Shown here: positions 25,719 to 39,988 of the stretch, one piece after another
How the letters are laid out: each line of letters opens with the position of its first letter
Numbering within the stretch: position 1 is the stretch's first letter
From: a virus
Virus record (IMG/VR): IMGVR_UViG_3300030382_002979
Coordinates: 1 to 40,495 of that record
DNA length: 40,495 bases
Strand: one strand, 5' to 3'
Notes under the pieces: model-generated
The model's input: the letters and a program-made list of their open reading frames with translations, nothing else
What the model was told of the DNA's origin: nothing
The model's database searches: none
Program-made: the position numbers and the translations under genes

Positions 25719-26151
25719 CACAATGGCTTCCAAGGTGCGTTATCCCTATATTATGTTGAATACCTTTGAGGTTAGGTCGATACCACTCGACCGCCTATTC
25801 TGCCCTTGTGCTACTGTAAACGCATTTGTCGAACGGCTTGCTGAATCGTTTGAAAAAGATGGTCTGCTCAACCCAGTTATCGTTGTCCGACTTTCGGTCG
25901 AAGACTTCTTGGCTAGGAAGGGGGCAAAGGGAAAAGCCAAGCTGTTGAAGAGAATACCTGCCGATTGGCAAACAATCAATGTGGTTTGGGGAGGCAACAA
26001 TAGAGTCGAGGCCGCTCGTATTCTCGGCTTTGATGAAATAGATTGTGTAATGATGCCCAACTTTGACGTGGCAATGCAAGTACAAGATAACCACAGAGAA
26101 TGGAATAAAGCAGATGCCAGGAAGCAACGCGAAAAAAGAGCCTGTAAGTAG
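25696..26151 (+). CDS. ParB-like N-terminal domain protein
   Basis: A 151-aa protein with the ParB/sulfiredoxin-type domain: an early EVRSIPLDRL strand, FVERLAESFEKDGLLNPVIV, and WGGNNRVEAARILGF (the GGNRR box of ParB-like nucleotide-binding or nuclease proteins), then a basic tail. Lone ParB-like domains are common in phages near terminase, methylase or nuclease genes; roles include DNA binding, CTP switching or nuclease activity. Start uncertain: ATG 25696 overlaps the resolvase, whereas ATG 25723 lies just after its stop. Neither has a Shine-Dalgarno site. Confidence 0.75.
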   Translation: MTKKLRLSTMASKVRYPYIMLNTFEVRSIPLDRLFCPCATVNAFVERLAESFEKDGLLNPVIVVRLSVEDFLARKGAKGKAKLLKRIPADWQTINVVWGGNNRVEAARILGFDEIDCVMMPNFDVAMQVQDNHREWNKADARKQREKRACK

Positions 26152-26548
26152 CCCTAAAGGGCCAGTTAAACGCCTCGAGTCCGTCGAGGAGATGGCGCGC
26201 GCTCGGTTTGGGGACACCGATGGCTTGGCTATTGTCCGTGAAACGACATTAGGTTTGGCGGAATACTATGCCGATAGGTTCTCGCTTGAGATGAGTGACC
26301 CAGAAGTGTCGCTTATAGCCTCGGCGCTCGCGTTTACACGCCACAAAGAGTTTGTCCTATACGTCGAGGTCGAGCGCGAGCTACATGCACGAGTATCTAA
26401 CCACCCAGATAATATCGGTTACGGGCAGGTGTTATTCCAGTCGGTGCGTACGGGCGCGTTCAAAGAAATCTACAGGGAGCTTGACAGGCTCCACTCACGC
26501 GCCGCCGTTTACACGAAAGAACTGAAGGAACTAGGCAAGGACAAGTGA
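26114..26548 (+). CDS. Helical protein, possible terminase small subunit
   Basis: A 144-aa mainly helical protein with a Lys/Pro-rich N-terminus. Its body (LAEYYADRFSLEMSDPEVSL, FVLYVEVERELHARV, FKEIYRELDRL) has the rhythm of a small helical oligomeric protein. No small terminase is found next to terL, and this gene shares the composition of such subunits, but I see no diagnostic motif. Start ATG 26114 is inside the end of the ParB-like gene; the frame is open further upstream to 26063. Its stop overlaps the next GTG. Confidence 0.45.
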   Translation: MPGSNAKKEPVSSPKGPVKRLESVEEMARARFGDTDGLAIVRETTLGLAEYYADRFSLEMSDPEVSLIASALAFTRHKEFVLYVEVERELHARVSNHPDNIGYGQVLFQSVRTGAFKEIYRELDRLHSRAAVYTKELKELGKDK

Positions 26549-26850
26549 CCTGTCCTGACAAAATCAAACTGATAGGTTTTATTGTGCCTGTTATCCTGAC
26601 CGATGAGCGCGACGACGTGTGGGGAGAGTGGGATGGGTCGGCTGGCACAGTAACCCTGAATGCACGGGCCTCGGACGACCACCTAAAGGTGACCTTCCTA
26701 CATGAGGTAATACACGGCATCGATGATATCTTAGGTTTAAACGTAAAACACTCGGCGGTGTACGCCCTATCACAACACCTATGGTTGCTGTTTAAAGAGA
26801 ACCCTGCGTTGGCAGAATGGTTCTTTACCGACCAAAAAGCCAATCAATAA
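26545..26850 (+). CDS. Small HExxH zinc-metalloprotease-like protein
   Basis: A 101-aa protein with FLHEVIHGID (His 53, Glu 54, His 57), the zincin motif, preceded by a beta hairpin region (GTVTLNA) typical of small ImmA/IrrE-like or SprT-like phage metallopeptidases. A third zinc ligand is not obvious; Glu/His residues after the motif (KHSAVYALSQHLW) are candidates. The GTG start overlaps the previous stop (GTGA). It ends 2 bp before the opposing minus-strand gene, so the two arms converge here with no clear terminator. Confidence 0.68.
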   Translation: MTCPDKIKLIGFIVPVILTDERDDVWGEWDGSAGTVTLNARASDDHLKVTFLHEVIHGIDDILGLNVKHSAVYALSQHLWLLFKENPALAEWFFTDQKANQ

Positions 26851-26852
26851 AC

Positions 26853-27092
26853 TTATTTGGCAGAATCCGGAACAACCAATTTAGGGCCACCGCCGTTTTT
26901 TGTATTGCTTTCTTCATTTTCAGTCTCCTCTTCTTGTGCTTTCATCTCCATCGCACGGTCATGCAGGATTGCATTTGCGGCGAGGGCGATACGTAAAATG
27001 TCCATGTTAGGTAGTTTACTCATCTCTTCAACTACATTCATGGGACCGGGGGTTTCCTTTTCTTTATCCATTGTCTCGTTTTGATTAGCCAC
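26853..27092 (-). CDS. Small acidic protein of unknown function
   Basis: Not recognised; 79 aa. It has a hydrophilic N-terminus, a central helix (MDILRIALAANAILHDRAMEM) written here only as a landmark near residues 28-48, and a Glu/Asn-rich tail. GTG at 27092 is preferred because GGAG lies nine bases before it; ATG at 27071 is the alternative. An open frame continues to 27221 but would sit wholly inside the next gene. Last gene of the minus operon. Confidence 0.5.
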   Translation of the reverse strand: MANQNETMDKEKETPGPMNVVEEMSKLPNMDILRIALAANAILHDRAMEMKAQEEETENEESNTKNGGGPKLVVPDSAK

Positions 27093-27327
27093 AGCAGTAT
27101 TCTCCAGCTTCGTTCTGCCAGTAGTCGCCGCCGCTTGATGTTTCCTCCATGTGATACTCACCCTCCATGCCCAATTGGGATTGGCCGTCTGCCCATCCCT
27201 CGAAGGACTCATCGCCTGCATCGCATTTACAGAAGATTATTTCAGCAATGGCGTGACCTTCTCTGAAGATGCCTGTATCTTTGCAGGCAGGGCAAGTGTA
27301 CGTTTTGATTTCCTTTTCTTTGTTCAT
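27085..27327 (-). CDS. Small zinc-binding protein
   Basis: An 80-aa acidic protein with CPACKDTGIF and a later CKC, giving a DnaJ-central-domain-like or rubredoxin-like zinc site (CxxC...CxC), and a terminal CC. Function unknown. The ATG overlaps the stop of the nuclease gene (TAATG), so it is probably translated by coupling, and its end overlaps the GTG of the next gene. Confidence 0.55.
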   Translation of the reverse strand: MNKEKEIKTYTCPACKDTGIFREGHAIAEIIFCKCDAGDESFEGWADGQSQLGMEGEYHMEETSSGGDYWQNEAGEYCCG

Positions 27328-28220
27328 TAGACTGTTATTTTAAGTGGGGTTTCGTGGCAGATATTTTTGAACGGGCAGTAACCTGGCTTGCCTCCCCTAC
27401 CACAGTAGAAGTTAGCCTCTGATTTATGGCGTAGCAGGAACTCCTCGCCAGGGTCTTCTCCTTTCAAGGCCATCGCAAGATTATCCTTGAGCCGGTTGAT
27501 GTTCCATTTGAGGATAGAAGCATCGACAAGGCGGGTGCTTAAACCCCGCATTAGTTGGTCGCGGTTGATGCCGCCTATTATAGCACCATACTCCTCAACC
27601 CCCAAAGCAGCCGCATAAGTAGACAACTGAGAGATGTAGCCGAAGCCATCGGGGTCATAGTCGAAGACTGCTTTACCGTGCTTACGGTAACCATAGCCAC
27701 CCATAGTCTTGAAGTCTACGAGCATCTTCGGCTGGCGCTCGACCACGGCAACGGGCAAGTATTTTTTGGCCTCCTCCTCATCCTCTATCTCGATGAGCAT
27801 ATCGACATGCCCTTTGGAAGAGAATTTCTCATGTTCCTTTGGCCACCAGTCAGGTAGCTCCACAGGAACCTCGGTGCTTACTTTGAAACCTGTTGGTATT
27901 CCACTCTTTACGGCACAGTAAGATAGCTCGTGGAGTAGGTGGCCGACAGCAAAGGTTGCCCCAATCTCGTCGGGCATCTCGCCTGCCGATTCCCCGTTGA
28001 GGAAAAAGTAAGCGTGTCGCGCACAAGAAAGAAACGAGGACGGTCTAATCGTCCGTGCCTCATTGCGTTGTACGACCGAATTTTTAATTGATTCGGCGGC
28101 GGCGTTTACACCCGCCTCAACAAGCTCTGGGTTAATGTTCTTGACCGAGCGACCATGATTCCAGACTGCCGAGATGAATCGGCTCCAGTCGGGGTATTGT
28201 TCTACAGGTAATTTATTCAT
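27327..28220 (-). CDS. Cas4/AddB-like PD-(D/E)XK nuclease with Fe-S cysteines
   Basis: Probable DNA exonuclease in replication or recombination. Seen in order: Cys 66 in SFLSCARHAY, GHLLHE (His 94), GHVDML (Asp 140), LVDFKTM (Asp 169, Lys 171), YISQLSTYAAAL (Gln 198, Tyr 202), and a final trio Cys 273, 282 and 288. The order of one early and three late cysteines around a RecB-type nuclease core is the signature of Cas4, AddB and RecB-like iron-sulfur nucleases. The 297-aa length fits. No CRISPR locus is nearby, so a phage replication role is more likely. GGAGG precedes the ATG. Confidence 0.82.
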   Translation of the reverse strand: MNKLPVEQYPDWSRFISAVWNHGRSVKNINPELVEAGVNAAAESIKNSVVQRNEARTIRPSSFLSCARHAYFFLNGESAGEMPDEIGATFAVGHLLHELSYCAVKSGIPTGFKVSTEVPVELPDWWPKEHEKFSSKGHVDMLIEIEDEEEAKKYLPVAVVERQPKMLVDFKTMGGYGYRKHGKAVFDYDPDGFGYISQLSTYAAALGVEEYGAIIGGINRDQLMRGLSTRLVDASILKWNINRLKDNLAMALKGEDPGEEFLLRHKSEANFYCGRGGKPGYCPFKNICHETPLKITV

Positions 28221-28444
28221 TGTTCCTCCGAGGTAGTGAATTCACTGTGTATTTCAGACGGGATTGCGTCTACAGCAATGGCTTTGTCCGTGCCGCGCAT
28301 GAAGAGCATTGAACCGCCTTGCTTGAAGTTAGGTATCACAGAAACGAGATACCTAAGATTGATTAAACGCCCGTCTGTGTCCACACCGGAATCAAACAGG
28401 GCGAATTTTTCTGTGCCTATTTCAACTACAGAGATTTTTTTCAT
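28217..28444 (-). CDS. Small protein of unknown function
   Basis: Not recognised. It is 75 aa from ATG 28444, a compact alpha/beta protein (KKISVVEIGTEKFALFD, LVSVIPNF, MLFMRGTDKAIAVD). Its open frame continues upstream in phase through two tandem hairpin repeats to TTG/GTG codons at 28528/28525, but no Shine-Dalgarno site supports any of these starts. Its stop overlaps the nuclease ATG (ATGA). Confidence 0.5.
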   Translation of the reverse strand: MKKISVVEIGTEKFALFDSGVDTDGRLINLRYLVSVIPNFKQGGSMLFMRGTDKAIAVDAIPSEIHSEFTTSEEQ

Positions 28445-28453
28445 TGGTAGGTG

Positions 28454-28520
28454 CGGGGCGGTTAACGCCAGCCCCGTAAGGCGACTCGGCGGGGCGGTTA
28501 ACGCCAGCCCCGTAAGGCGA
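28454..28520 (-). repeat. Tandem 31-bp hairpin repeat, two copies
   Basis: Identical 31-bp units at 28454-28484 and 28490-28520 (36-bp period). Each contains CGGGGC and GCCCCG (28454-28459 with 28471-28476; 28490-28495 with 28507-28512) flanking a GTTAAC palindrome, so each can fold into a stem-loop. There is no T-run, so these are not standard terminators. The period is a multiple of three, so the repeat would read in frame if translation started upstream. Confidence 0.85.
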
Positions 28521-28531
28521 TACACCAAAGG

Positions 28532-28945
28532 CTAGTTCTTCATCGGGGTGAAGCGGAACTCGGCCCATTTGCCGAAGTCACCTTCTTCATGAAAAACTGT
28601 TATGTTTACACGTTCACCAACCAGGTCTCGAGGAGTCTTTTGTAGCGCCTCTTCTTGGTCTGGCCAAACCGCCTTCACCATCTTGGTGTAAACGGCACGT
28701 GAATTAAGGGGACGCTTGAAGTTAATAAAGGTAGACAGGTCTCCATCGAAAGTCGGGCAATCGAATTGGACAAGCAGTCTAGCCTCTACGCCCTTCTCTT
28801 TCTGGCGCTCGTGCGGCTCGAAAGCGCGCACATCCTTAATGGTGCAGTTAGGGTAGGAACCTTCAGGAGTCATGGCTTTCTTGCCCTCAAACTCTTCAGG
28901 TGTAATCGTAGCATTCAAGATGCTATCTGGGTCAAATTCATTCAT
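28532..28945 (-). CDS. Possible ssDNA-binding / DUF669-like protein
   Basis: A 137-aa protein: AMTPEGSYPNCTIKDVRAF, then GVEARLLVQFDCP, FINFKRPLNSRAVYTKMVKAV, DLVGERVNITVFHEEGDF and a final FRFTP strand. This layout (PEGxYP start, a strand describing a bound group, LVGxRVxVxV) resembles DUF669 and other OB-fold-like phage proteins next to nucleases and polymerases. A single-strand DNA-binding role is an inference from similarity and location. AGGAG precedes the ATG. Confidence 0.5.
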   Translation of the reverse strand: MNEFDPDSILNATITPEEFEGKKAMTPEGSYPNCTIKDVRAFEPHERQKEKGVEARLLVQFDCPTFDGDLSTFINFKRPLNSRAVYTKMVKAVWPDQEEALQKTPRDLVGERVNITVFHEEGDFGKWAEFRFTPMKN

Positions 28946-29162
28946 CTTCTTTATCTCCTAGTGGCTTAGGGCCACGGTCTAAGTTACGAAGTAATCCGAG
29001 CAAATCGAGATTGCCTTCTGATGCGAGCGGTTTTGCTCTTAGAAGTCTCTCTACTGCTCCGGCGAGGGCTTCTTTATCCCTCGGGGGTCGGTCGCTCATT
29101 TCTTCGAGCGCGTCTCTGACTCTACGGTCAATCAGTTTGCTAATGCTTTCCTTTTCAGTCAT
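28938..29162 (-). CDS. Small charged helical protein
   Basis: Not recognised; 74 aa, rich in Arg/Glu/Leu, with two amphipathic helices (ISKLIDRRVRDALEEM and LAGAVERLLRAK) and an acidic end. AAAGG precedes the ATG. It overlaps both neighbours by 8 bases. Possibly a partner of the polymerase or the putative ssDNA-binding protein, judged only from the operon. Confidence 0.5.
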   Translation of the reverse strand: MTEKESISKLIDRRVRDALEEMSDRPPRDKEALAGAVERLLRAKPLASEGNLDLLGLLRNLDRGPKPLGDKEDE

Positions 29163-29652
29163 GTACCTTTCTTATCCACCAAGATTGGAAACGGTCTGAC
29201 CCGTCCGTAATGTTAAGTGTTACGCCATAATCTTTTACGAACCTGTCTACTGCTTCAATGGTTTTAGGATACTTCTCGCTGTAATCGTGTCCGGCGAATA
29301 AGCCCCCAAGCGCTAGTTTACGCCACCAATCGCGTATTGTTTTACCGCCGTCTTGTCCGGTGTGGGCATACCCATCGATGTAGATGAAGTCAAAGAAGTT
29401 GTCGGGAAAAAGGGTAAGCGCCTCATCGAAAGTCGCACGGATAACCGTGCTTTGTCTTCCGAATACGCGCAATGTTTCCATAGCATCGAAGTATTCCTTC
29501 ATGTCATGGTGGTCTGCCCATCGGTCGATTGAGTACAGGCGGCGGCAGTCAGCCCCTCCGTCGAGAAGAACATTTGAGAAATCTCCTCGGGCTACCCCAA
29601 GTTCGACTCCTGTTGTCCACCCTAATTTTGCTAATTCGTTGCGTGATTTCAT
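29155..29652 (-). CDS. Class I SAM-dependent methyltransferase
   Basis: A 165-aa Rossmann-fold enzyme: motif I is GVELGVARGDFSNVL (15-29), the acidic end of strand 2 is SIDRWADH, motif IV-like is FDFIYIDGYAHTG (Asp 93), and ALGGLFAGHDY (115-125) follows. This resembles Methyltransf_24/TylF-like small-molecule methyltransferases rather than DNA methyltransferases, which would show DPPY/NPPF. Substrate unknown; it lies between polymerase and small replication genes. GGAG precedes the ATG, next to the polymerase stop. Confidence 0.75.
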   Translation of the reverse strand: MKSRNELAKLGWTTGVELGVARGDFSNVLLDGGADCRRLYSIDRWADHHDMKEYFDAMETLRVFGRQSTVIRATFDEALTLFPDNFFDFIYIDGYAHTGQDGGKTIRDWWRKLALGGLFAGHDYSEKYPKTIEAVDRFVKDYGVTLNITDGSDRFQSWWIRKVHD

Positions 29653-31314
29653 TTACACATCTCCCCAAGTATCTCCTTCGGTCGCGGATGCGGTGAATGT
29701 AATGTTAGAGAACTCAGTATAGGCATTGTTGGCCGCGTATTCCATCAATTCCTTTAATTTTTCGCCCTCACCTTGCCCCTGAATAAGTACCTCATCGTGA
29801 ACAGAAAGGATGGGTTCGAGTCCGGCCTCGGCAACGGCAACCAAGGAGTGCCTCATCAGCTCTGCGGCGGAACCCTGCACTATAACACTGATAGCAGAGC
29901 GTGTCTCCTCGTCGGCAAGGAAAGGGCGCGTCCTACCCGATACTGTTCGTGCTAATCCGTATGCTTCTGCCTCTCTCCACACGCCCTCCATCCATTCGTT
30001 TAAACGCGGCAGATTCCGTTTGTATTCCTCGAGGAATTTCTTGGCTTCGTCGTACGTCGACTTGAGTTCGATGGCTAGTCGCTTTGCTCCCATGCCGTTC
30101 AAGATGCCAAAGTTTACGGCCTTGGCTTTGAACCGCTCATCGGGTGTGATGCTCTCAAGGGTTTTCCCTAACATCTTTGCGGCTACCTCAGTATGTGGGT
30201 CTCCGCCGGAGTGGAAGGCTGACAGAAGTACCTCCTCTCCGGCGAAAGATGCGGCAACCCGTAACTCGACCTGTGAAAAATCACAGGCCGTGACCCCCGT
30301 TCTACCGGGGGAAGTCAGACACGAGCGGATACTTTTGCCCAAGGCTCCACGCTTAGGTATCTGCTGTAAGTTCGGGCCGGAGCAACTGAACCGTCCAGTT
30401 CGTGTAAGTGTCGTGTTGGTCTGTGGATACAGTAATCCATTCTGCGTCATTTTAGGCAACGGCTCTATGAAAGCGGACCGCAACTTGACTGCCTTGCGCC
30501 AGTCCAAAACGAGACTGACTAAGTTGTCCCCCTTGTCCGCCAGTTTCTGAAGGACAAGTTTAGACGTGCTTATATTACCCTTCGGCGTTCGTGGAAGATG
30601 TCGCCCCTCTTTGGTTAGCCAGTCGCCTACTTGTTTGGGTGAGTTACCATCACCACCAAAGCCAGCCGAGCGTAGGGCGTGTTCGGACATATCGATTAGG
30701 GTGTCTAAACGTTCCTTTACTTTGGACAACCGCTTTGGTAAAAGCCTAACCCCCCTTCTCTCCATCTCATACACCGCCTTATCTACACGGTAATCGAACT
30801 CACACGCATCCATCTGTAACACCTCGGACATCCGCCAGGTAATGAGGCAGTCATCTGCCAGGTATCTCTCCAAATCAGGTTCCGGTACGTCATAGATACG
30901 CCCCTTCTTCAGGAGGTCGGGTGTCTTAATCTTTGGCCACCCATACATTCGAGCGATGTGGTCCATGCTTTTACGCCCTGCCGTATTGTTGAAGTAGCAG
31001 GCAACCATTGTATCTTGCCAAGGAACTGTGGGCTTTAGCCTGAGTGCATGCAAGTCGAAGCGTAGGTTATGCCCAACCAACCGTAGTCCTTCGACGATGG
31101 GACGTAGCCCCCAGTCATCGAAGTCTTTGCGCGCTACTATCAGGCAGAACTGACTGCCGTAGGGCATCAGCCCTATGTATTTTGCCTCGTTTTTAGGTAT
31201 GTTTCCACGCACTTCTAGCCCGTCAGTTTCGGTGTCCATTACCCAACGCTTATCTGCGCCCTTGGTAAGTAAGGCTATCGAATCCTCTTTGTTTAAACGT
31301 AATACAGTAATCAC
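29653..31314 (-). CDS. DNA polymerase, family A, with 3'-5' exonuclease
   Basis: Replicative polymerase of 553 aa. Exonuclease: MDTETDG (Asp 27, Glu 29), GHNLRFDLHAL, YLADDCLITW. Polymerase: TGRFSCSGPNLQQIP, motif A CDFSQVELR (Asp 345), motif B RFKAKAVNFG (Arg 394, Lys 398, Phe 402) and motif C SVHDEVL (506-508). Phe 402 equals the E. coli Pol I Phe 762 position. The nearby residue equivalent to the conserved Tyr 766 is Asn 406 (FGILNG), which is unusual. There is no 5' nuclease domain. The GTG at 31314 overlaps the preceding stop (GTGA) with a G-rich site 7-8 bases upstream. An upstream in-frame start at 31356 is less likely. Confidence 0.93.
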   Translation of the reverse strand: MITVLRLNKEDSIALLTKGADKRWVMDTETDGLEVRGNIPKNEAKYIGLMPYGSQFCLIVARKDFDDWGLRPIVEGLRLVGHNLRFDLHALRLKPTVPWQDTMVACYFNNTAGRKSMDHIARMYGWPKIKTPDLLKKGRIYDVPEPDLERYLADDCLITWRMSEVLQMDACEFDYRVDKAVYEMERRGVRLLPKRLSKVKERLDTLIDMSEHALRSAGFGGDGNSPKQVGDWLTKEGRHLPRTPKGNISTSKLVLQKLADKGDNLVSLVLDWRKAVKLRSAFIEPLPKMTQNGLLYPQTNTTLTRTGRFSCSGPNLQQIPKRGALGKSIRSCLTSPGRTGVTACDFSQVELRVAASFAGEEVLLSAFHSGGDPHTEVAAKMLGKTLESITPDERFKAKAVNFGILNGMGAKRLAIELKSTYDEAKKFLEEYKRNLPRLNEWMEGVWREAEAYGLARTVSGRTRPFLADEETRSAISVIVQGSAAELMRHSLVAVAEAGLEPILSVHDEVLIQGQGEGEKLKELMEYAANNAYTEFSNITFTASATEGDTWGDV

Positions 31315-31772: not shown

Positions 31773-31820
31773 GCAAAGTTTCGGTACGTTATCCGACTGG
31801 ACAACCGTTGCATTCTTCCT

Positions 31821-31904
31821 TCAGGTCGGCTTTAATTTGTTGATTATGCCCTTTAAACGCTCGTTGACCTTGGTCAAACGATTTATTTTCTTCTCGTCGC
31901 TCAT
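31821..31904 (-). CDS. Very small basic protein
   Basis: A 27-residue frame starting MSDEKKINRLTK, with a short amphipathic basic helix (VNERLKGIINKL). The ATG overlaps the helicase stop (ATGA), which is the pattern of most real starts in this operon. It may be a genuine micro-protein or a coupling leader for the next gene. Evidence is only the coupling and composition. Confidence 0.35.
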   Translation of the reverse strand: MSDEKKINRLTKVNERLKGIINKLKPT

Positions 31905-33016
31905 TGGGGTAGCCTCGCTTTTAATGTTATTGGAATGTGAACCCTTCGCCTTGCCCTTGTGAGCATAACGTAGAGTAAACGAATTGTTTCTGTGTCCTTT
32001 GCTTCTAGTCTTTTGATTGCTTGCCGAGACCACGGGAGCAGGTAGACATCATCGGCCTCAGCTCCCTTCGCGGCATGCCCTGTCGCTAAGACCAGCTCCT
32101 CATCTGCTTGGGCAACGTTAGGAACAACACCTGTCTGTGAAAGATTCCAGTTGCGGAATGCTTTTGCTACAGCACGGCGAGAGTAGCCTAAGACCAGTCC
32201 TTTAAACGGCCTGTTTGTGTGGTTCCATGTAAGGATATCCGTCACATGCTCCGCTTTAAAGGTACTCGATGGGCGCTTATAGTAGGAGCTAAGAACCCTA
32301 GAGGCCACCGAAGCTACGGGGTCTCCTACCCTATACCCCTTATTCATTACCTCCTTCTCGTCTGCACTTGCCCAAACAGGGGGTAAAGAGCCTCCGGTCA
32401 TGCCCTTTGAAGTGGCGAAGATAGATTGGCCAGGGTCTCCATAGGCTGTGGCCTCGCCCCCTTCTTTGAGTAAACCTAAACAAGCGCGGAGTTCTAACCA
32501 CGACATGTCTTGGGCTTCGTCGATTGCGATACGTTTAAACGTCGGCTTACCTTCAACCAACGGGCAACCCGCCTCTACCCAACGGGCAAGGGGTAATGTG
32601 TATTTCAGCAACCCTTTCGGGGTCTCATTCCACAGGTCGAATGGGGGGTCTCCCGCACTCCACGCATGGAGACTCTTTGCCATCCCATCCTGCCTTGATG
32701 GGGGGCAGTTCGACGGCGCGTCCATCTCGTACTGAACGAGAGCGGGGTCGAACAGGTGGTGAATCTTCCTCTGCCCGTATGAAACATTTACCGTTGAACC
32801 CAACATCTTTGTCCCCTTTGCGAATGAGGAAACATGGGGCCAAGATAAGGAGTATATCGTCCCTGCTGTAAGGTCGGGCGCTCTGCTCCGTACCACAGCG
32901 GCGGCATCGTTTGTGTAGGTCAGGACTGCCGAGTCCTTCTCCCAATTCTCCGCTACCTGAATGATGCGGCGTGTTTTTCCGGTTCCTGGGGGGCCGTCGA
33001 TTGTTATTAGAGTCAT
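31901..33016 (-). CDS. Compact UvrD/PcrA-like SF1 helicase
   Basis: A DNA helicase of 371 aa, about half the usual UvrD length, so the 1B/2B insertions appear reduced. Motifs: Walker A GPPGTGKT (8-15), motif II IDEAQDMSW, motif III GDPGQSIF, motif V ATGHAAKGAEADDVYL and motif VI YVMLTRARRRVHI. It is the only replicative-type helicase in the window, so it may unwind the fork or serve recombination. The ATG overlaps the stop of the sulfotransferase-like gene (ATGA) and there is no separate Shine-Dalgarno site. Confidence 0.88.
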   Translation of the reverse strand: MTLITIDGPPGTGKTRRIIQVAENWEKDSAVLTYTNDAAAVVRSRAPDLTAGTIYSLSWPHVSSFAKGTKMLGSTVNVSYGQRKIHHLFDPALVQYEMDAPSNCPPSRQDGMAKSLHAWSAGDPPFDLWNETPKGLLKYTLPLARWVEAGCPLVEGKPTFKRIAIDEAQDMSWLELRACLGLLKEGGEATAYGDPGQSIFATSKGMTGGSLPPVWASADEKEVMNKGYRVGDPVASVASRVLSSYYKRPSSTFKAEHVTDILTWNHTNRPFKGLVLGYSRRAVAKAFRNWNLSQTGVVPNVAQADEELVLATGHAAKGAEADDVYLLPWSRQAIKRLEAKDTETIRLLYVMLTRARRRVHIPITLKARLPQ

Positions 33017-33871: not shown

Positions 33872-35426
33872 TTTTAGTCTCCTTTGTACGCACGAAATTC
33901 TCGTATTGAGCGGCGCAGTATTCCTTTGTTTCGGGGGTGATGTTGTCTAAAGAACAGGCCCAGACCTTTTGTCCTGAGCGCATTCCTACCAACGATTTTA
34001 TTGTTAAGTGCTTAGACACCAAGCGTTTAGCCTTGGGGATGTCCCCAATTTGCGTGAGCAAAGTCTCTTGTAGCATGGGTGGGATGACCAAAGATGGGGG
34101 TTCCATTTCGGTTAGAGGCCAAACAATGAAGGCGGTTGCCGCACCTGCGGGACGCTTCTCTGTCCAAGCCTCTAAGAATAGACGGTCTCCCGATGAGATG
34201 CGCGCCCACTCGTCCAGCAATTCCCAGAACCTTTCTTCTGGTGGTATACCTAATTGGTCTACAGCCTTCTCGGTTTGGAGCATATACTCCAACACCTTTG
34301 ACCATCCAGGTTGTATAAACAGGGGCGAGCGCGCCACCGTATCGGGGTCAGCTTGTGTTAAGCGAGTAAGTGTGGGAAGAATCTCCTTTAAGTCCTTTAA
34401 ACGCACCAATCTGTCGGCCTCGTGCCTACGTTTAGGCGAGCCACCCAGTCCAGCGAGCCATTCCCTTGTCTTACCTGACGAATCTCTTACCTCGACAAGC
34501 CAAGGAACCGAGCTAAAGACACCTTCACATTCAGCCTTGACATCTGTAACTGAAGGGTGTTTTTCACGTGCTTGATACTTCTCGGCATTCTTACTACCCG
34601 TCTTAAACCCAGAGATAACCGTGGTATTAAATTCCTTTCGACCGAAATCTCGACCGAGTTTGGTTGATAATACCCCCCAAAGCATGTCTAAGATATCTTC
34701 GGGTATACCTTTTGCGGGATGGACGCGCCCAAGAACCTGTGCAATCTTGGCCAAGGCGTTGTTGCGGTCACCCTCATGAAAGTCCGGCAGTAATCGAAGA
34801 GTATCCAGAAAGTGTGCTACCTCTGTCGGTGTGTTACCCTCCTCTGTTTTCCCTTGCTCCTTTCTTGCGCGGATTCGAGCCATCAAAGTTGGGCTTGGTT
34901 CGGGTAAGGTGCTTACATCCAATCGGCCTGAGTATTTACCTATACGCCCATGCTTATTCATCGCGACCGACTCTGGAAGCATGATTAAACGACGGTTCTT
35001 CGCACTTGCCCTAACTTCTCCCTTGACTCCGTTGCCGAAATCAATAGTGGCGGGTAGCTTCTCACCCGGAACATCGTCGGGTAGTTTAAACCACAGATGC
35101 CAGCCGCCTGATGCGGTAGCTACCTTACCTAAACCCTTTGGCGGGGTATCATCGGGACATATCGTGTGCCAAATCGAGTCGAAGTCTGCGCCATATGTGT
35201 CTAAGTCTAGTATCAATAAGCGAGTAGGGTCGTTTGACTGAGGGCAAAGGGCGGCTCCCGTGGCATCTCCCGCATTTAGAAGGTGTGCATTCAGCAGTTC
35301 ATGTTCCTTATTCTCAATGAATTCGTCCCATTTCTTGCCGCCAAATGATGTCGGGAACTTTTGCTTGCTTTTAACGGGGAATACCCAGTATCCCTGTTCA
35401 CTAAGCGTAAGCCAATTAGTCTTCAT
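33855..35426 (-). CDS. PrimPol-type DNA primase/polymerase
   Basis: Primase of 523 aa. The N-terminal 200 residues match the bifunctional primase-polymerase domain: WVFPVKSKQKFP opening, LLILDLDTYG with the paired Asp 74 and Asp 76, and TASGGWHLWFKLP (His 110). The third catalytic position, usually in a D-(L/I)-R strand, reads GEVRASAKNRRLIMLPES here, Glu instead of Asp. The remaining 320 residues are not a recognisable helicase: no Walker motif is present, so this is not the common primase-helicase fusion. GGAGG eight bases before ATG 35426 fixes the start; the open frame extends to 35486. Confidence 0.8.
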   Translation of the reverse strand: MKTNWLTLSEQGYWVFPVKSKQKFPTSFGGKKWDEFIENKEHELLNAHLLNAGDATGAALCPQSNDPTRLLILDLDTYGADFDSIWHTICPDDTPPKGLGKVATASGGWHLWFKLPDDVPGEKLPATIDFGNGVKGEVRASAKNRRLIMLPESVAMNKHGRIGKYSGRLDVSTLPEPSPTLMARIRARKEQGKTEEGNTPTEVAHFLDTLRLLPDFHEGDRNNALAKIAQVLGRVHPAKGIPEDILDMLWGVLSTKLGRDFGRKEFNTTVISGFKTGSKNAEKYQAREKHPSVTDVKAECEGVFSSVPWLVEVRDSSGKTREWLAGLGGSPKRRHEADRLVRLKDLKEILPTLTRLTQADPDTVARSPLFIQPGWSKVLEYMLQTEKAVDQLGIPPEERFWELLDEWARISSGDRLFLEAWTEKRPAGAATAFIVWPLTEMEPPSLVIPPMLQETLLTQIGDIPKAKRLVSKHLTIKSLVGMRSGQKVWACSLDNITPETKEYCAAQYENFVRTKETKNEAEI

Positions 35427-35769
35427 TTGATTTTCCTCCAAGAAAGAATTCGCCGGATAATAACCTCCAGCACCTAGCCAATTCAAGACCCCATTCGTCT
35501 CCGTGTTCGTGTTCTACGCCCCATGTCAAAACATGCGCCCATTCGTGGGCGAGTAGTGTAAACGCGAGTTCGGGTGAGCGTATGCTCAGGTCTTTCTTTA
35601 GCCTTATTAAGTATTGTTTAGAGTGGTGAGAAGTATCCGCCATTCTCTCATCAGGCACGTCATTCGTGATTCTGATTCTGACGGGTAGCCCATCGGGAGC
35701 AGGTAACAGCGCCCTAAATAAGCGAACCATCTTCCAGAAGTATCTCCAAGTAACCTTATCTTCTAGCAT
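35416..35769 (-). CDS. HExxH metallopeptidase-like protein (SprT-like)
   Basis: A 117-aa protein with LLAHEWAHVLTW (His 75, Glu 76, His 79) followed after nine residues by HGDEWGLELARCW, where His 89 is a plausible third zinc ligand. The arrangement resembles the putative metallopeptidases of many phages and SprT/WSS1-like enzymes, which act on proteins bound to DNA. The upstream frame to 35862 overlaps a separate ribbon-helix-helix gene and is not used; ATG 35769 has AAAGG about 10 bases before it. It ends inside the primase start region. Confidence 0.7.
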   Translation of the reverse strand: MLEDKVTWRYFWKMVRLFRALLPAPDGLPVRIRITNDVPDERMADTSHHSKQYLIRLKKDLSIRSPELAFTLLAHEWAHVLTWGVEHEHGDEWGLELARCWRLLSGEFFLGGKSNED

Positions 35770-35923
35770 TTTCAGCGAGCCTTTTGATTGCTCGCCTAAC
35801 CACGGCAGAGATGGATGTATCTTCTTCGTATGCAAGTTGCTCAAGCTCTTTGTATTCTTCATCTGTTAGTCTGACCTCAATTCTGTGGCTCCGGTCAATA
35901 GAGCGTTTTTTTCTGTTAGTCAC
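35756..35923 (-). CDS. Ribbon-helix-helix transcriptional regulator
   Basis: A 55-aa protein from GTG 35923: a basic tail, a beta strand RIEVRLTDEEYKELEQLA, then a turn and a second helix TSISAVVRRAIKRLAEN. This is the classic Arc/CopG-type layout. GGAGG lies five bases before the GTG. It is shorter than usual gene-calling limits and in another frame than the overlapping protease extension, so it is easily missed. It is the first gene after the structured 35.9-36.1 kb spacer, a natural place for a regulator acting on that spacer or on its own promoter. Confidence 0.82.
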   Translation of the reverse strand: MTNRKKRSIDRSHRIEVRLTDEEYKELEQLAYEEDTSISAVVRRAIKRLAENARR

Positions 35924-35944
35924 GGCTACCTCCTATTAGGAACC

Positions 35945-36136
35945 TTTCGACCTATTAAAAGCGCGTAAAGCCAGCAAACACAAGGGCTTACGGCAAAACA
36001 CCTAAAAAATGCGACGGCGGGGGGCCAGCGGGAGAGTCTCGGCAAACTGAATGCTTACAACCGAATGCCAAATCTCTCAAAAACCGCCTTAACCCCGCCG
36101 CCACAAAAGACTTACGTTCACGCGAATAGGTCGAAA
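35945..36136. repeat. Intergenic inverted-repeat element
   Basis: TTTCGACCTATT (35945-35956) and AATAGGTCGAAA (36125-36136) are perfect 12-bp inverted arms. Inside, CGGCGGGG (36015-36022) pairs with CCCCGCCG (36093-36100). No gene is seen in the 219-bp spacer 35924-36142. The spacer separates the replication genes from the small accessory genes. The core arm TTCGACCTAT recurs in the element at the right end. Confidence 0.75.
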
Positions 36137-36142
36137 CGTCCC

Positions 36143-36337
36143 TTATAGTCGAGACGCATCCTTCCTAGCCGCGCGATGTTTCCTACCCTTCGATATCGCC
36201 AGCTCAATGGCATCCTTCGACACATGTTTCTTAATCTCCGCCATCAACATTTTCTCTAGCCAATCGCGTGGGTCGATAGCCGACTGAGCGGCTACCTGTC
36301 GGACAAGTAATTCAATGCTGTGGGAGAGTTTAATCAT
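36143..36337 (-). CDS. Small basic helical protein
   Basis: Not recognised; 64 aa. It is helical with a basic C-terminus (SKGRKHRAARKDASRL) and could bind nucleic acid. Its beginning (SIELLVRQVAAQSAIDPRDW) has some resemblance to a ribbon-helix-helix second half, but no strand is clear. The ATG overlaps the previous gene's end by 8 bases, with no Shine-Dalgarno site. Confidence 0.5.
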   Translation of the reverse strand: MIKLSHSIELLVRQVAAQSAIDPRDWLEKMLMAEIKKHVSKDAIELAISKGRKHRAARKDASRL

Positions 36338-36596
36338 GGCCCATTATCATAAGGATATTCTCGGCGTAGCCCTTAATATCTTGCAAAGAATCTCGGCTTG
36401 GGCCAGCTTCTGACTGACACCGCGCAATCTTCTGCAAGATATTGAGGAAACATACATCGATTGGTGTTCGACTGGAAGATTTCGTATTCAAGTCGTAAGC
36501 ATGCCAGAACCGCGCCGTCCTCCAATGATTCTCGGAAGGCGGCCCGTAAGCCTTCCCCCTTTCGGTAACTAACGACTTCACTGTGCGCCTTACCAT
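36330..36596 (-). CDS. DUF6378-like phage protein
   Basis: An 88-aa helical protein with ERGKAYGPPSENHWRTARFW, DVCFLNILQKIAR and a final RDSLQDIKGYAENILMI. This order (RGxxYGxPxxN, a KIAR helix and a RDxxxDIxGYA helix) matches DUF6378, a small helical family frequent in phages whose biochemical role is not known; a MazG-like relation has been proposed only from fold-like features. AGGAGG precedes the ATG, directly after the previous stop (TAA ATG). Confidence 0.72.
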   Translation of the reverse strand: MVRRTVKSLVTERGKAYGPPSENHWRTARFWHAYDLNTKSSSRTPIDVCFLNILQKIARCQSEAGPSRDSLQDIKGYAENILMIMGHD

Positions 36597-36869
36597 TTAA
36601 ACGTCCTCCTTATTTTTAGTCATGAAAACCATTCTCGCCGCGTTCTTAGCCTTGACTTTACGCATCTCCTCAATGAGTTGAAGCGCCTTAGTCAGCGGCG
36701 CACGACCTCTTCGATGGAACCTCGCCCTCGGAAAGGCAATGCCTTCCTGCTCCAATACTGCCCAAGTGGTGCGTCCCTTTCTAATCCAGACATGCGCCGA
36801 CGTGTAGCATCGTTTACACAGCCCACGTGTGTGCGCCACCCTATCACAATCCGTTACGTTACACTTCAT
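36597..36869 (-). CDS. Zinc-finger protein
   Basis: A 90-aa basic protein opening with MKCNVTDCDRVAHTRGLCKRC, a C-x4-C-x8-C-x2-C zinc site of the kind found in the N-terminal part of phage HNH-type and other DNA-binding proteins. A basic helical region (RRGRAPLTKALQLIEEMRKV) follows. No HNH catalytic motif is present. It probably binds DNA or RNA. GGAGG precedes the ATG. Confidence 0.62.
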   Translation of the reverse strand: MKCNVTDCDRVAHTRGLCKRCYTSAHVWIRKGRTTWAVLEQEGIAFPRARFHRRGRAPLTKALQLIEEMRKVKAKNAARMVFMTKNKEDV

Positions 36870-37162
36870 TGTCCATCCTCCACGGCAGTATCCAAGTCGA
36901 ATTCAATCTCAGCTAAATCCTCCAAATCTTCAGGAGCGAGCATCTCCTCATAACAAGACCAACCGTGCTTATCATCCCACCATTCCTCATCGAGAACGGT
37001 TTCCGTTAATTCGGTCTTGTCCAAATCCTCAAGCATCTCTACCTGCTTCTCTAAGTCTGCTAACGACGTGCCTTGAAGCGTTATGGTCGTATCAGTCTCA
37101 TACGAAATGAACTTATTTAGCCTCACATGGACATCAAGTTCCCAAGTATTATTGTCCGTCAT
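36866..37162 (-). CDS. Acidic protein of unknown function
   Basis: Not recognised. It is 98 aa from ATG 37162, strongly acidic (for example DLEKQVEMLEDLDKTELTE, and EDLEDLAEIEFDLD at the end). Acidic small phage proteins sometimes mimic DNA or inhibit host enzymes; there is no direct evidence for that here. GGAGG lies before ATG 37162; the frame is open to 37219 but that part overlaps the next gene. Confidence 0.5.
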   Translation of the reverse strand: MTDNNTWELDVHVRLNKFISYETDTTITLQGTSLADLEKQVEMLEDLDKTELTETVLDEEWWDDKHGWSCYEEMLAPEDLEDLAEIEFDLDTAVEDGQ

Positions 37163-37367
37163 TTTTCTTATCCTCCATGCGTTGTTTAAACGTCTCCATC
37201 CAGTAAACGAGGTAATCACCAGCCAAACCTTGCGTCAATCCAAAAGCATCAACTAAGAATTCCCCTGCTCCAAACATGTTTGTTACGCCCGACTCTCTCA
37301 AGTCATCAAGGTATTCCGCATGTTGTTCGGTATACCCATCAGGCACTTTAATCGACTCACTAACCAT
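37149..37367 (-). CDS. Small conserved phage-type protein
   Basis: A 72-aa protein with GVTNMFGAGEFLVDAFGLTQ and LVYWMETF. The MFGAxxxLxxxFGL...YWMxTF pattern is one I recognise from many short unannotated phage and plasmid proteins. Function unknown. ATG 37367 follows GGAGG by about 10 bases and overlaps the preceding stop. Confidence 0.58.
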   Translation of the reverse strand: MVSESIKVPDGYTEQHAEYLDDLRESGVTNMFGAGEFLVDAFGLTQGLAGDYLVYWMETFKQRMEDKKNDGQ

Positions 37368-37716
37368 CAAATCTATCCTCCAAGTGTATTTCTCTATTTG
37401 TTGCTATTGAGTGCGCTTGGTCATCTAAGCCCAAATCACACACTAATGTATCCCACTTGATTCCAGATACGGAGACATGCTCCCCCTCTATCATCAAGTC
37501 TGTTACCTCATAGTCAAATTCTGGACACCACCCCTGCTCACCAGGGTCTCCATTCGACTCGTAAGGTCTGTCAGCCTCGCCCCTTTCTGTGCAAGTAACG
37601 TGTAAACACAACGTAACCTGAACATCTGACCAACCATCCGCCAGTTCCTTCAACGTAATGGTTGCTTCAGGGTAAGCTCTCGCCAATCTATCTAAATCAG
37701 TATTCACTTCGACCAT
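37360..37716 (-). CDS. Protein of unknown function
   Basis: Not recognised; 118 aa, acidic, beta-rich (EATITLKELA, VQVTLCLHVTC, YEVTDLMIEGEHVSV). Cysteines are present but not arranged as a ribbon. AAGGA precedes the ATG. It overlaps both neighbours. Confidence 0.48.
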   Translation of the reverse strand: MVEVNTDLDRLARAYPEATITLKELADGWSDVQVTLCLHVTCTERGEADRPYESNGDPGEQGWCPEFDYEVTDLMIEGEHVSVSGIKWDTLVCDLGLDDQAHSIATNREIHLEDRFDG

Positions 37717-38057
37717 TCTTCCTTCAACTCCTCGCTGAACAACTCCAGCGCATCGGGTGTAAAATCTATACGTCCACTCGGTAGCGTGAAATCACGCACC
37801 CGAACAAACATGGTGGCAAGGAACTCAGGACTAACCCAACCAAGGGGCTGTCCGCAGACCTCGCCATCGGGAGACATGAGAGCAACCTCGGCATCATGGC
37901 TATCGATTGCCTGCGACAGCCGCCTAGAGTCAGCTTTCCTATCCTCCATCCGCTTCCTGGCCTCGCAGTAATGGAACGGACTCCATCTCACCGAGAGACC
38001 AAGCCCATTCCGAAACCTCACCGTGAAACCATTTTGGGACTGTGTAAACGCCCTCAT
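37704..38057 (-). CDS. Protein of unknown function
   Basis: Not recognised; 117 aa from ATG 38057, preceded by GGAGG. It opens with a beta-hairpin-like region (GFTVRFRNGLGLSVRW) and a YCEARKRMEDRKADSRR helix; the middle contains a likely strand pair (AEVALMSPDGEVCG). ATG 38078 is in frame upstream but lies in the previous gene. Confidence 0.48.
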   Translation of the reverse strand: MRAFTQSQNGFTVRFRNGLGLSVRWSPFHYCEARKRMEDRKADSRRLSQAIDSHDAEVALMSPDGEVCGQPLGWVSPEFLATMFVRVRDFTLPSGRIDFTPDALELFSEELKEEWSK

Positions 38058-38245
38058 CGCTCGTCCTCCTCTCTCCAAACTACGCCAAATTCGCTAGGCT
38101 CGTAGCCCTCATCCTTGTTGTCGCAATCGGGACACCACAGGTCTGTTCGCGCTAGGTCATCGGCACACCTTTCACCATTATTCAGGTGAGTCCACTCACG
38201 ACTCTGAACATCAGAGCCGCCACATTTTTCGCAGACCCAACTCAT
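38054..38245 (-). CDS. Small zinc-ribbon protein
   Basis: A 63-aa protein: MSWVCEKCGGSDVQSREW and, further on, LWCPDCDNKDEGYEP, a four-cysteine CxxC...CxxC ribbon. GGAGG precedes the ATG. It overlaps both neighbours. Proteins of this size usually bind zinc and nucleic acids or partner proteins; nothing more can be said. Confidence 0.6.
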   Translation of the reverse strand: MSWVCEKCGGSDVQSREWTHLNNGERCADDLARTDLWCPDCDNKDEGYEPSEFGVVWREEDER

Positions 38246-38862
38246 CGCGCGACCTCCATCTGATTACCACACCCACAAGTAGGTGGGGGCAGAACCTCAA
38301 GCCATTTGCGGGTCATCCGAGCGATACAACCACAACTCCAGCATTGAATCTTAATCATTCTTGACCCCGGTTTCTTTCTCGCTTGACCATCCAAGCCCGG
38401 ATGCGGATACTCACCGAGCATCTTATTTACAAGTCCCAACTTTCTCTTTAGGATTTCACCCGCAACGGTCGCGGTCATTTTGCCCTCCAGCCCTACTGCC
38501 TTGGCTACCTTTCTGAATGGGCCTCTATGACCGCACTCAGTGCCAACCGACGCATGAACCATCTCATGAAGCAAAACCGCAAGAACCTCGATGGGGTCAG
38601 TCAGCTCAGGACTAATGAAGATGTGCGCCCTCTCCTTATCCCCACTTGCCTTCTTGTCCCAACATTGTCCAATCGTCTTTCCATGCGCCCCACCTCTTGA
38701 ACCCTTTGCCCAACCCACCGAAACATGTGGGGTCAGGAAATCTGGAGCAGAGACTCTAGTCATCAAGGGGCGTAGCTCCCCAACCGCAGACTGGAGCCAA
38801 TCCTCCCTGTTCGACGCAATGGCGGCTTGCCTTACTGTTCCTAGCTGTATCACCTCCATCAT
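38242..38862 (-). CDS. SprT-like zinc metalloprotease
   Basis: A 206-aa protein with VLLHEMVHASVGT (His 99, Glu 100, His 103), a third ligand in CGHRGPFRKVAKAVG (His 112) and a C-terminal zinc ribbon (CWSCGC near 174-179 and CGCG near 196-199). This is the full SprT/Spartan-type layout. Cellular relatives cut proteins crosslinked to DNA; here the target could be host DNA-bound proteins or phage terminal complexes, which is inference. GGAGG precedes the ATG; a second ATG follows directly. Confidence 0.85.
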   Translation of the reverse strand: MMEVIQLGTVRQAAIASNREDWLQSAVGELRPLMTRVSAPDFLTPHVSVGWAKGSRGGAHGKTIGQCWDKKASGDKERAHIFISPELTDPIEVLAVLLHEMVHASVGTECGHRGPFRKVAKAVGLEGKMTATVAGEILKRKLGLVNKMLGEYPHPGLDGQARKKPGSRMIKIQCWSCGCIARMTRKWLEVLPPPTCGCGNQMEVAR

Positions 38863-39233
38863 TCAACCTCCGAGCGTTTAAACGCACTCACATAGAGCTG
38901 GAACTGTCCCGTCTCTGTGATGGCGAATCCAGGGATGAATCCCTCATCTTCGCATTGGTCATAGAACGACCGCGCCTCTTCGATAAACTGCCTATGAGTT
39001 AAGGCTGGTTCATCTTCCGCACCCATTCCAGACGAATCGACAAAGAATGTCTTTTCATACCCATCATCATCGATTGGCTCCCAACCATCTGGCAAGTAGT
39101 CCCCCAAGTTCGGGAAGGGGAATGGTGGTGAAATCTCCCAACGAGTTGCTGGAATGAAAGGTTCCTGGTTCCTTTCTGCCGCTTCTCGACCCGTCTCCTT
39201 CGAGAGTTCTTTAATGTATTCAACGCTCATCAT
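38859..39233 (-). CDS. Protein of unknown function
   Basis: Not recognised. It is 124 aa from ATG 39233, preceded by GGAGG. It has a helical start (VEYIKELSKETGREAAERN), then an acidic, Pro/Phe-rich segment (ISPPFPFPNLGDYLPDGWE), and a C-terminal region FYDQCEDEGFIPGFAITETG. No motif recognised. Confidence 0.5.
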   Translation of the reverse strand: MMSVEYIKELSKETGREAAERNQEPFIPATRWEISPPFPFPNLGDYLPDGWEPIDDDGYEKTFFVDSSGMGAEDEPALTHRQFIEEARSFYDQCEDEGFIPGFAITETGQFQLYVSAFKRSEVE

Positions 39234-39261
39234 GACTGACCTCCGTGGTCTCAATTAAACT

Positions 39262-39280
39262 AAAATCCGACCGCAGTCGG
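39262..39280 (-). terminator. Candidate rho-independent terminator
   Basis: CCGAC (39267-39271) and GTCGG (39276-39280) form a 5-bp stem with a four-base loop. On the minus strand the stem is followed by ATTTTA and more T-rich bases. It lies after the 33-codon zinc-ribbon gene and before the next gene. The stem is short, so it may be only a partial attenuator. Confidence 0.4.
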
Positions 39281-39330
39281 GGTGATTTGGTGAGCAGTTT
39301 TGACTCATGCTCAGGAGTTGAATCCAGAAC

Positions 39331-39432
39331 CTACGGAGTAGAATCGCAGGATAGGCAAATCAGCCCTTTATCAGTTTTGACTGCTTCAGACTCTGGTAGT
39401 CGGGACTCGCAGTTGGCGCATCGGATACTCAT
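39331..39432 (-). CDS. 33-residue zinc-ribbon micro-protein
   Basis: A short frame starting MSIRCANCESRLPESE and ending with CLSCDSTP: CxxC...CxxC spaced for one zinc ribbon. GGAGG lies just before the ATG, and the ATG overlaps the previous stop (TAATG), both typical for this operon. It is too short for normal gene finding. Function unknown. Confidence 0.6.
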   Translation of the reverse strand: MSIRCANCESRLPESEAVKTDKGLICLSCDSTP

Positions 39433-39659
39433 TAGTCCTCCTCCCTCTTGTATTCGAGTGCGGCAATAAAGAGTAACTTCTTGGCAAACTCTTCTAGTGC
39501 TTCAATCGAGCAAGAGAAGTCCACCTTAATCCCAGCACACTTAAATGTTAAGTCGGGGTTATCCCATGTGTAGCATGAGCGTGTAATGTCCACCTTTATT
39601 GGGCGGTCATCCTTCCTATTGAGCCTAAGACTCTCGTAAACGGATTTGCTTACTTTCAT
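39432..39659 (-). CDS. Small protein of unknown function
   Basis: Not recognised; 75 aa. It has a basic N-terminus (SVYESLRLNRKDDRPIKVD), two central strands and a C-terminal helix EALEEFAKKLLFIAALE. AGGAGG precedes the ATG. It is the first gene of the long minus operon, directly after the 329-bp leader region. Confidence 0.52.
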   Translation of the reverse strand: MKVSKSVYESLRLNRKDDRPIKVDITRSCYTWDNPDLTFKCAGIKVDFSCSIEALEEFAKKLLFIAALEYKREED

Positions 39660-39988
39660 TTTTGACCTCCTATGGTCTGGATTTTATTGGTAGTAGCTCG
39701 GTTAGAGCCAACGAGTTTAGTGTTGGGGAGAGACGGGTGAGGGACTAACTCAACCGACAGCCGCTAGTCTGCGATGAGGCAACGACAGGTATCTCACAGT
39801 AATGAGGGGGACTCAATCTTCTGTGTGCCAACTCTCCTAGAACCTGCCAAGTGTAGACTTCAACAATCTGAACTCTAGTCATCAGGCTCTAACCGTGCTG
39901 TGTAAACGCTTACACAACGATAAAATATAAGAGTGCCTCTTATTCTCGGCTTACTCTCTGGATTGGATTGGACTCAGAAAAACGGACA
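39660..39988 (-). promoter_or_regulatory. Leader region upstream of the minus operon
   Basis: There is no gene in this 329-bp stretch on either strand. It ought to hold the promoter of the minus operon. AT-rich TATATTTTATC (minus strand, around 39918-39928) is the best -10-like block, but no good -35 partner was found. The palindrome at 39899-39916 lies right beside it. No tRNA could be folded from the region by eye. Confidence 0.4.
39899..39916. promoter_or_regulatory. Operator-like palindrome TGTGTAAACGCTTACACA
   Basis: Perfect 7-bp arms TGTGTAA and TTACACA around ACGC. The site lies in the leader of the minus operon next to an AT-rich block, as expected for a dimeric repressor or activator. 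On the minus strand it contains CGTTTACA, a member of the motif family repeated through this arm. Confidence 0.55.

Follow-up and report, generated by a model that had tools for sequence, protein, structure and literature searches.

ImmA/ImmR and IrrE/DdrO are protease-repressor pairs, and Chi, KOPS and the nucleoid sites of Noc and SlmA are short motifs dispersed over genomes. The protease activity of SPRTN is DNA-dependent (PMC5127644, PMC5128726), SprT-like proteins of mycobacteriophages have been noted as SPRTN-like (PMC12363180), and cluster A mycobacteriophages with an L5-type repressor have stoperators dispersed over the genome (PMC9283540). Here we describe the octamers CGTTTA[AC]A that crowd the replication arm of a 40,495-base virus record (IMGVR_UViG_3300030382_002979), called the window at its full length. 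Judged from sequence comparison, these octamers are very probably half or whole copies of a decamer, CGTTTAMACG, recognised as its cognate site by a SprT-like metalloprotease that the phage itself encodes (38242-38862, minus strand), through the C-terminal zinc ribbon and probably as a dimer. We hold this view because of the association of gene and motif across phages, the cases of ribbon loss, the shift of DNA word in one ribbon class (CGMI) and the position of sites at the SprT promoter.

The window encodes terminase, portal and internal-virion-like proteins, and its replication arm encodes a PolA-type polymerase, PrimPol, helicase and Cas4-like nuclease. We counted 23 copies of CGTTTA[AC]A between 25.7 and 40.5 kb. 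Shuffling synonymous codons, which leaves the proteins and the codon usage intact, predicts 1.8, and none of 200 shuffles exceeded 7. In the structural arm the same null predicts 1.5 and 2 are present; positions 505-25800 have none. A sequence-only reading had listed the octamers, reported that same empty interval and argued that codon choice does not explain sites falling in mixed frames and across gene boundaries. Every coordinate was exact on recheck, a direct search confirmed the gap, and the shuffle came nowhere near the observed count, so that its general notion of repeated protein-binding sites holds. The sites lie in mixed reading frames, within genes, at junctions and between genes, and the longer form of the motif is [C/T]GTTTA[A/C/G]AC, with the near-palindrome CGTTTAMACG as its best version. 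No second box was found at a constant distance around the core, which rules out a promoter box with a fixed partner. The sites and the candidate reader are as follows.

38242-38862, minus strand: SprT-like metalloprotease (HExxH...H) with C-terminal zinc ribbon, 206 aa; candidate motif reader
38875-38884, no strand: perfect palindrome CGTTTAAACG, 13 bp ahead of the SprT start codon; candidate operator
29997-30006, no strand: perfect palindrome CGTTTAAACG within the DNA polymerase gene
32532-32541, no strand: perfect palindrome CGTTTAAACG within the helicase gene
494-503, no strand: perfect palindrome CGTTTAAACG within the terminase gene; sole full copy of the structural arm
25815-25822, minus strand: site CGTTTACA
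26331-26340, plus strand: site CGTTTACACG
26506-26515, plus strand: site CGTTTACACG
26736-26743, minus strand: site CGTTTAAA (CGTTTAAACC)
28103-28110, plus strand: site CGTTTACA (CGTTTACACC)
28687-28694, minus strand: site CGTTTACA (CGTTTACACC)
31292-31299, minus strand: site CGTTTAAA (CGTTTAAACA)
31852-31859, minus strand: site CGTTTAAA
32201-32208, minus strand: site CGTTTAAA
33143-33150, minus strand: site CGTTTAAA
34396-34403, minus strand: site CGTTTAAA
35084-35091, no strand: GTTTAAAC with weaker flanks, within the PrimPol gene
35557-35564, minus strand: site CGTTTACA
36596-36603, minus strand: site CGTTTAAA, followed at once by ATG
36811-36818, plus strand: site CGTTTACA
37185-37192, minus strand: site CGTTTAAA (CGTTTAAACA)
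38043-38050, minus strand: site CGTTTACA
39901-39908, minus strand: site CGTTTACA, intergenic

Minus-strand starts of CGTTTAAA also fall at 29999, 32534 and 38877, where they overlap the CGTTTAAACG palindromes.

The gene association singles out one family. In iterative profile searches the SprT-like protein was the one family present in every full motif-bearing relative and in none of the motif-free relatives, and it alone occurred in all 18 motif-bearing genomes; the runner-up, PolA, occurred in 13 of these and also in 11 of 11 motif-free genomes. No family of ParB homologues, PrimPol, helicase or RHH proteins was common to the 18, and the primase, helicase, ParB-like and RHH binders put forward in the sequence-only reading are not supported. 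A tblastn search with the SprT-like protein matched 163 named phages; most infect Arthrobacter, Microbacterium or Streptomyces, and others Pseudomonas, Bordetella or Enterobacteriaceae. Unrelated phages of Arthrobacter, Microbacterium, Streptomyces and Burkholderia that have the protein share the motif, with enrichment reaching 160-fold. The first two actinophages examined, Percival and Yang, had GTTTACAC 14 times against 0.46 and 20 times against 0.34 by codon shuffle, and by the same null Marky had 39 copies of GTTTA[ACG]AC (1.5 expected) and Cen1621 had 28 (0.5 expected). Motif-type words were top-ranked in Yang, Percival, UtzChips, Emotion, Cen1621, Marky, 4A and Mica. Per whole record, CGTTTAMACG was counted 23 times in Marky, 22 in Cen1621, 19 in UtzChips, 14 in Yang, 11 in Percival, 10 in Emotion, 5 in 4A, 3 in Mica and once or twice each in Mano, Persinger, PT1 and KA2-1. 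Controls without a full SprT-like protein, among them CherryonLim with a weak partial family match, had zero or one copy; T7, lambda, P22 and VpV262, which have no SprT family, had one or two GTTTAMAC places each. Despite their SprT-like protein, AvGardian, Brahms, PSA20 and MW2 had no CGTTTAMACG and Franklin22 had one.

The zinc ribbon probably accounts for these last cases. An alignment of 23 homologues placed the difference between motif-bearing and motif-free phages in the C-terminal ribbon, which reads R[MLI]xKxxC...(C/S)G[YC]xxRxTxxW in the former and KSRSGKSIKL.C...DFVVSISKxRL in motif-free Microbacterium homologues; the homologues of PSA20 and MW2 have lost the ribbon cysteines. A degenerate or lost ribbon goes with absence of the motif in AvGardian, Brahms, Franklin22, PSA20, MW2 and the contigs L224, L227 and L228. 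The last three, which lack the cysteines, belong to a wider test on 89 non-redundant SprT-bearing viral contigs, for which fold enrichments and expectations, like those of the class-by-word comparison below, come from a low-order Markov model and not from codon shuffling; they show no enrichment, and ribbon-bearing loci of the same set are enriched, often 10- to 100-fold.

The DNA word also shifts with the class of ribbon. With the marine ribbon, GTTTAAAC, GTTTACAC and GTTTAGAC are enriched alike, about 20-fold (GTTTA[ACG]AC). The actinophage ribbon goes with GTTTA[AC]AC, with A or C (133- and 167-fold), and GTTTAGAC is seen 0 times against 1.4 expected; the low-GC ribbon goes with GTTTAAAC only, at 39-fold. 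Where the ribbon has CGMI instead of CGY or CGC, the word is ATTTAAAT, seen 38 times against 0.8 expected (48-fold), and the divergent ribbon of L266 goes with GTCTAGAC, 5 against 0.36 (14-fold). Four control palindromes showed no enrichment. Such co-variation of ribbon residues and DNA word would be hard to explain other than by contact between ribbon and DNA. Other divergent ribbons, in L226 (CGTIARMSKTQ), L277 (CGAVARISRKW) and L220 (CDF...VRMSAQV), keep strong GTTTA-type motifs and should be useful for finding which ribbon residues matter. Contig L280 (IMGVR_UViG_3300046660_000471) has, beside its GTTTAAAC sites, AATACTAG/AGTATTTG words in 8-10 copies against 0.2.

Placement gives a further line of evidence. 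We looked for a site in the 200 bp upstream of SprT, taking expectations from random places on the same contigs: 24 of 31 loci of actinophage type had one (3.2 expected), as did 4 of 7 low-GC loci (1.4 expected). The layout of the window, a palindrome before SprT, recurs in PT1, Mano, Mica, KA2-1, Persinger and actinophages. These upstream sites adjoin -35/-10-like boxes (judged by eye), either in the spacer or just past the -10, as in Marky (TTGCGC-(site)-TACTGT) and PT1 (TATAAT...GCACGTTTAAACGC). The remaining sites are dispersed and mostly intragenic, and in some phages they cover structural genes. A simple gene caller put 2 of 23, 3 of 17, 6 of 28, 0 of 14 and 3 of 20 sites between genes, and the published gene table of Yang gives about 8 of 20. 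Since most sites are intragenic, the promoter element suggested in the sequence-only reading fails as a pure promoter; what survives of it is the subset in the SprT promoter region of many phages. Sites are spaced more regularly than random placement would give in Yang (P=0.0002), Percival (0.0006), Marky (0.0006), Cen1621 (0.0012) and the window arm (0.03), and no such evenness was seen in G006 or G007, two relatives of the window.

The SprT-like protein of the window matches PF10263 with 27.4 bits (cut-off 25.6, E 3e-6) and phrog_6361 with E 6.5e-47; 33 of 44 homologues match PF10263. Residues H99, E100, H103 and H112 are invariant across the 44, so that the protease is constrained together with the ribbon. 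An AlphaFold2 model from these 44 sequences is confident (pLDDT 89), an earlier model from seven sequences having been mediocre. SPRTN was not among the best 50 PDB structure matches of the model, and a profile-based sequence search of the PDB with the protein returned nothing. The PrimPol gene is overlapped at its start by a second metallopeptidase open reading frame (35416-35862, minus strand; HEWAH), which looks unrelated and matches the SprT-like family weakly (E 0.002).

Among viruses closer to the window, its terminase relatives are uncultured viral contigs, and a megablast search of its arm against named phages gave zero matches. Six motif-bearing genomes, the window included, are related marine podoviruses. 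When every 8-mer was ranked against codon shuffling, GTTTA-type words came top in the window, G001, G003, G004, G006 and G007, and never in G011, G013, G014 and G016; with this recurrence in relatives the motif passes the second refuting check that the sequence-only reading had proposed, as it did the shuffle. The crowding of sites into the replication and accessory region, another claim of the sequence-only reading, is extreme in the window; the relatives bear the motif in both arms, with lower contrast. The relatives share only 56-64% identity in polymerase. Of 147 sites in aligned genes, just 17 fall at matching positions in different relatives (0.6 expected), among them that at 29997-30006 (polymerase alignment column 462, also in G004 and G006) and that at 35084-35091 (PrimPol alignment column 137, also in G003, G006 and G007). 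It is therefore mainly the density of sites that is kept and not their place, and a position-conserved element is ruled out as a general account.

The strand bias once claimed for the octamers is likewise genuine in the window, where CGTTTA stands at 23 minus to 9 plus. Part of the apparent count is empty because the CGTTTAAACG copies are palindromic and tell nothing of strand, and the ratio differs among other phages (e.g. 15:2, 24:4 and 8:15). Over the six related genomes CGTTTA is found 77 times sense and 39 antisense in replication arms, and 57 to 66, without bias, in structural arms. An element acting at the mRNA level was rejected because the non-palindromic sites of the structural arms show no sense bias (10:22).

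Several side observations concern these relatives and other phages. Two neighbours of the polymerase gene were rejected as binders, x103 being confined to the marine family and missing from other motif-bearing phages, and h137 being present in motif-free relatives too and missing from phages outside the marine family. A Gemmatimonadota metagenome-assembled genome (CP070815.1) was discarded as evidence of the host, its phage piece lying between 100-N scaffolding gaps; this piece (L143, about 6.1-10.9 kb) has SprT, motif copies and a truncated terminase (88% to G006) and could be a phage contig binned with the assembly or could point to the host. GTTTAAAC is scarce in that assembly (4 copies), and a host-wide motif is therefore unlikely. 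The motif-free relative G011 (IMGVR_UViG_3300010155_002773) has a word of its own, CAGGGTCG, in 14 copies on one strand only at 5.5-20.2 kb (2.9 by codon shuffle), and the distant relative G016 (IMGVR_UViG_3300032257_000025) has AGTGCTGG/CAGTGCTG 17 times against 2.2 by the same null. The Microbacterium phages PrincePhergus and Mercedes (L194-L195, L198-L199) have GGCCACAC 28 times against 4.5 and 36 against 3.9 by codon shuffle, perhaps another system of dispersed sites, and the Arthrobacter phage Emotion (L170-L172) has CGTGAAAC/CACGTGAA, parS-like palindromes in look, 20 times against 1.2.

Some results weigh against reading by the ribbon. The closest PDB structure to the model, the minigluzincin abylysin (a metallopeptidase zymogen), is a weak match (probability 0.93, E 0.07), and the ribbon gave no structural match to any sequence-specific DNA binder. 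Two ribbon-bearing loci, L265 and L281, have zero sites and several others are weak; GTTTA[ACG]AC is only modestly enriched by codon shuffle in PT1 (12 against 4.3) and KA2-1 (16 against 2.8). Despite the one in the window, sites upstream of SprT are at chance level in marine loci (2 of 12, 1.8 expected), and 4A has none. The motif-free SprT carriers belong to few lineages and so do not stand for many independent events, the named phages of the wider test were mostly picked for having SprT, and the SprT-free controls are 12 genomes. With these points counted, we regard the best explanation, taken whole, as likely.

What the sites do can be proposed with less assurance. The SprT-like protein would bind the near-palindrome as a dimer, and binding in its own promoter region would limit its synthesis. 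The dispersed sites would both anchor the protease along phage DNA and titrate it, and its amount would thus track the copy number of that DNA; once tethered it would, by analogy with SPRTN, which removes DNA-protein crosslinks, clear proteins that are stuck on, silence or coat the phage DNA. If the ribbon does read the sites, this way of working has a little under an even chance of being right. Somewhat more tentatively, we propose a sequence-specific phage protease whose ribbon reads a decamer set evenly over its own genome, so that proteolysis is confined to phage DNA and scaled with it: a self-marking system of clearance or anti-silencing, autoregulated by the same site.

The strongest competitor keeps the reader and changes its job: the SprT-like protein would be chiefly a transcriptional repressor, its operator controlling its own and other promoters, its dispersed sites resembling stoperators, its protease serving self-cleavage or induction, and it would provide immunity as the repressor of temperate phages. 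Sites that overlap or abut the -10 or sit in the spacer of SprT promoters suit such a role, as do the cluster AZ phages Powerpuff, Lego and YesChef, which have the SprT-like protein and 13-15 perfect sites; Powerpuff forms stable homoimmune lysogens and no repressor was identifiable (PMC8758107). Against it, most sites are intragenic and evenly spaced and not at promoters, their orientation relative to transcription is mixed, the catalytic residues never decay, and no integrase match was found among the window genes scanned. We consider it possible, if rather unlikely.

Less probable again, and improbable in our view, is that the sites are bound by another phage or host protein, itself the target of the SprT-like protease as ImmR is of ImmA and DdrO of IrrE, the ribbon recognising this partner and not DNA. 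Protease-repressor pairs are a known theme, and several actinophages have a DNA-binding-protein gene next to SprT; the motif-bearing phages have no other family in common, however, one site is found across hosts of at least seven genera, and the ribbon residues follow the DNA word itself.

Loading sites for a primase or helicase, binding sites for ParB-like or RHH proteins, a recombination hotspot or a promoter element, the suggestions of the sequence-only reading, fit the crowding of window sites in the replication arm, but they are very improbable: the replication genes are also present in motif-free relatives and are absent or different in the motif-bearing PT1, Mica, Mano, KA2-1 and Persinger, and sites cover structural genes in other phages. 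A Chi-like site would be asymmetric with strong polarity, and a hotspot of this kind finds no support because the motif is near-palindromic and its orientation mixed. Composition, codon use or chance is scarcely credible given the codon-shuffle nulls, the flat control palindromes and the recurrence of the motif in unrelated phages.

A literature search, with subscription journals and preprints outside its scope, found no description of GTTTAAAC, GTTTACAC or CGTTTAAACG in phages, and none of the motif for phage clusters EH or AZ in the literature searched. Repeat motifs have been published for other Microbacterium phage clusters, and the present motif is not among them in the passages covered. 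The SprT-like gene is already known, widespread and annotated in actinophages; as far as we searched, its pairing with cognate DNA sites has no published description, and no described kind of system has a protease that sets an address code over the whole genome through its own zinc ribbon. If true, a family of DNA-dependent proteases gains a DNA address code that is legible in any genome and changes with a short zinc ribbon, and with it come a system in which to study how proteins and their DNA sites co-evolve and possibly a protease that can be programmed to DNA targets. Were the repressor role correct, it could supply the missing repressor of temperate cluster AZ and EH phages, in which lysogens are homoimmune although no repressor is known (PMC8758107).

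With its reader taken to be the zinc ribbon, the system resembles several described ones in part. SPRTN/Spartan and cellular SprT-like proteins have the same HExxH domain and Pfam family (PF10263) as the phage protein; the phage proteins differ in going with a specific DNA word that shifts with the zinc ribbon and has many sites genome-wide, and we know of no such DNA sites for SPRTN. Cluster A stoperators share the many dispersed cognate sites, the site variants among lineages and the operator-like sites, whereas here a zinc-ribbon metalloprotease takes the place of the helix-turn-helix repressor as candidate reader, and the sites are near-palindromic decamers, mostly intragenic, of mixed orientation and present also in phages without integrase. 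Like Chi, KOPS and the sites of Noc and SlmA, these are short motifs over a genome, but they have no steady polarity, their candidate reader is self-encoded, and they are spread evenly on phage genomes of many hosts. ImmA/ImmR and IrrE/DdrO likewise couple a metalloprotease to DNA sites; here no partner repressor family is shared, and it is the protease itself that appears to carry the specificity for DNA sites.

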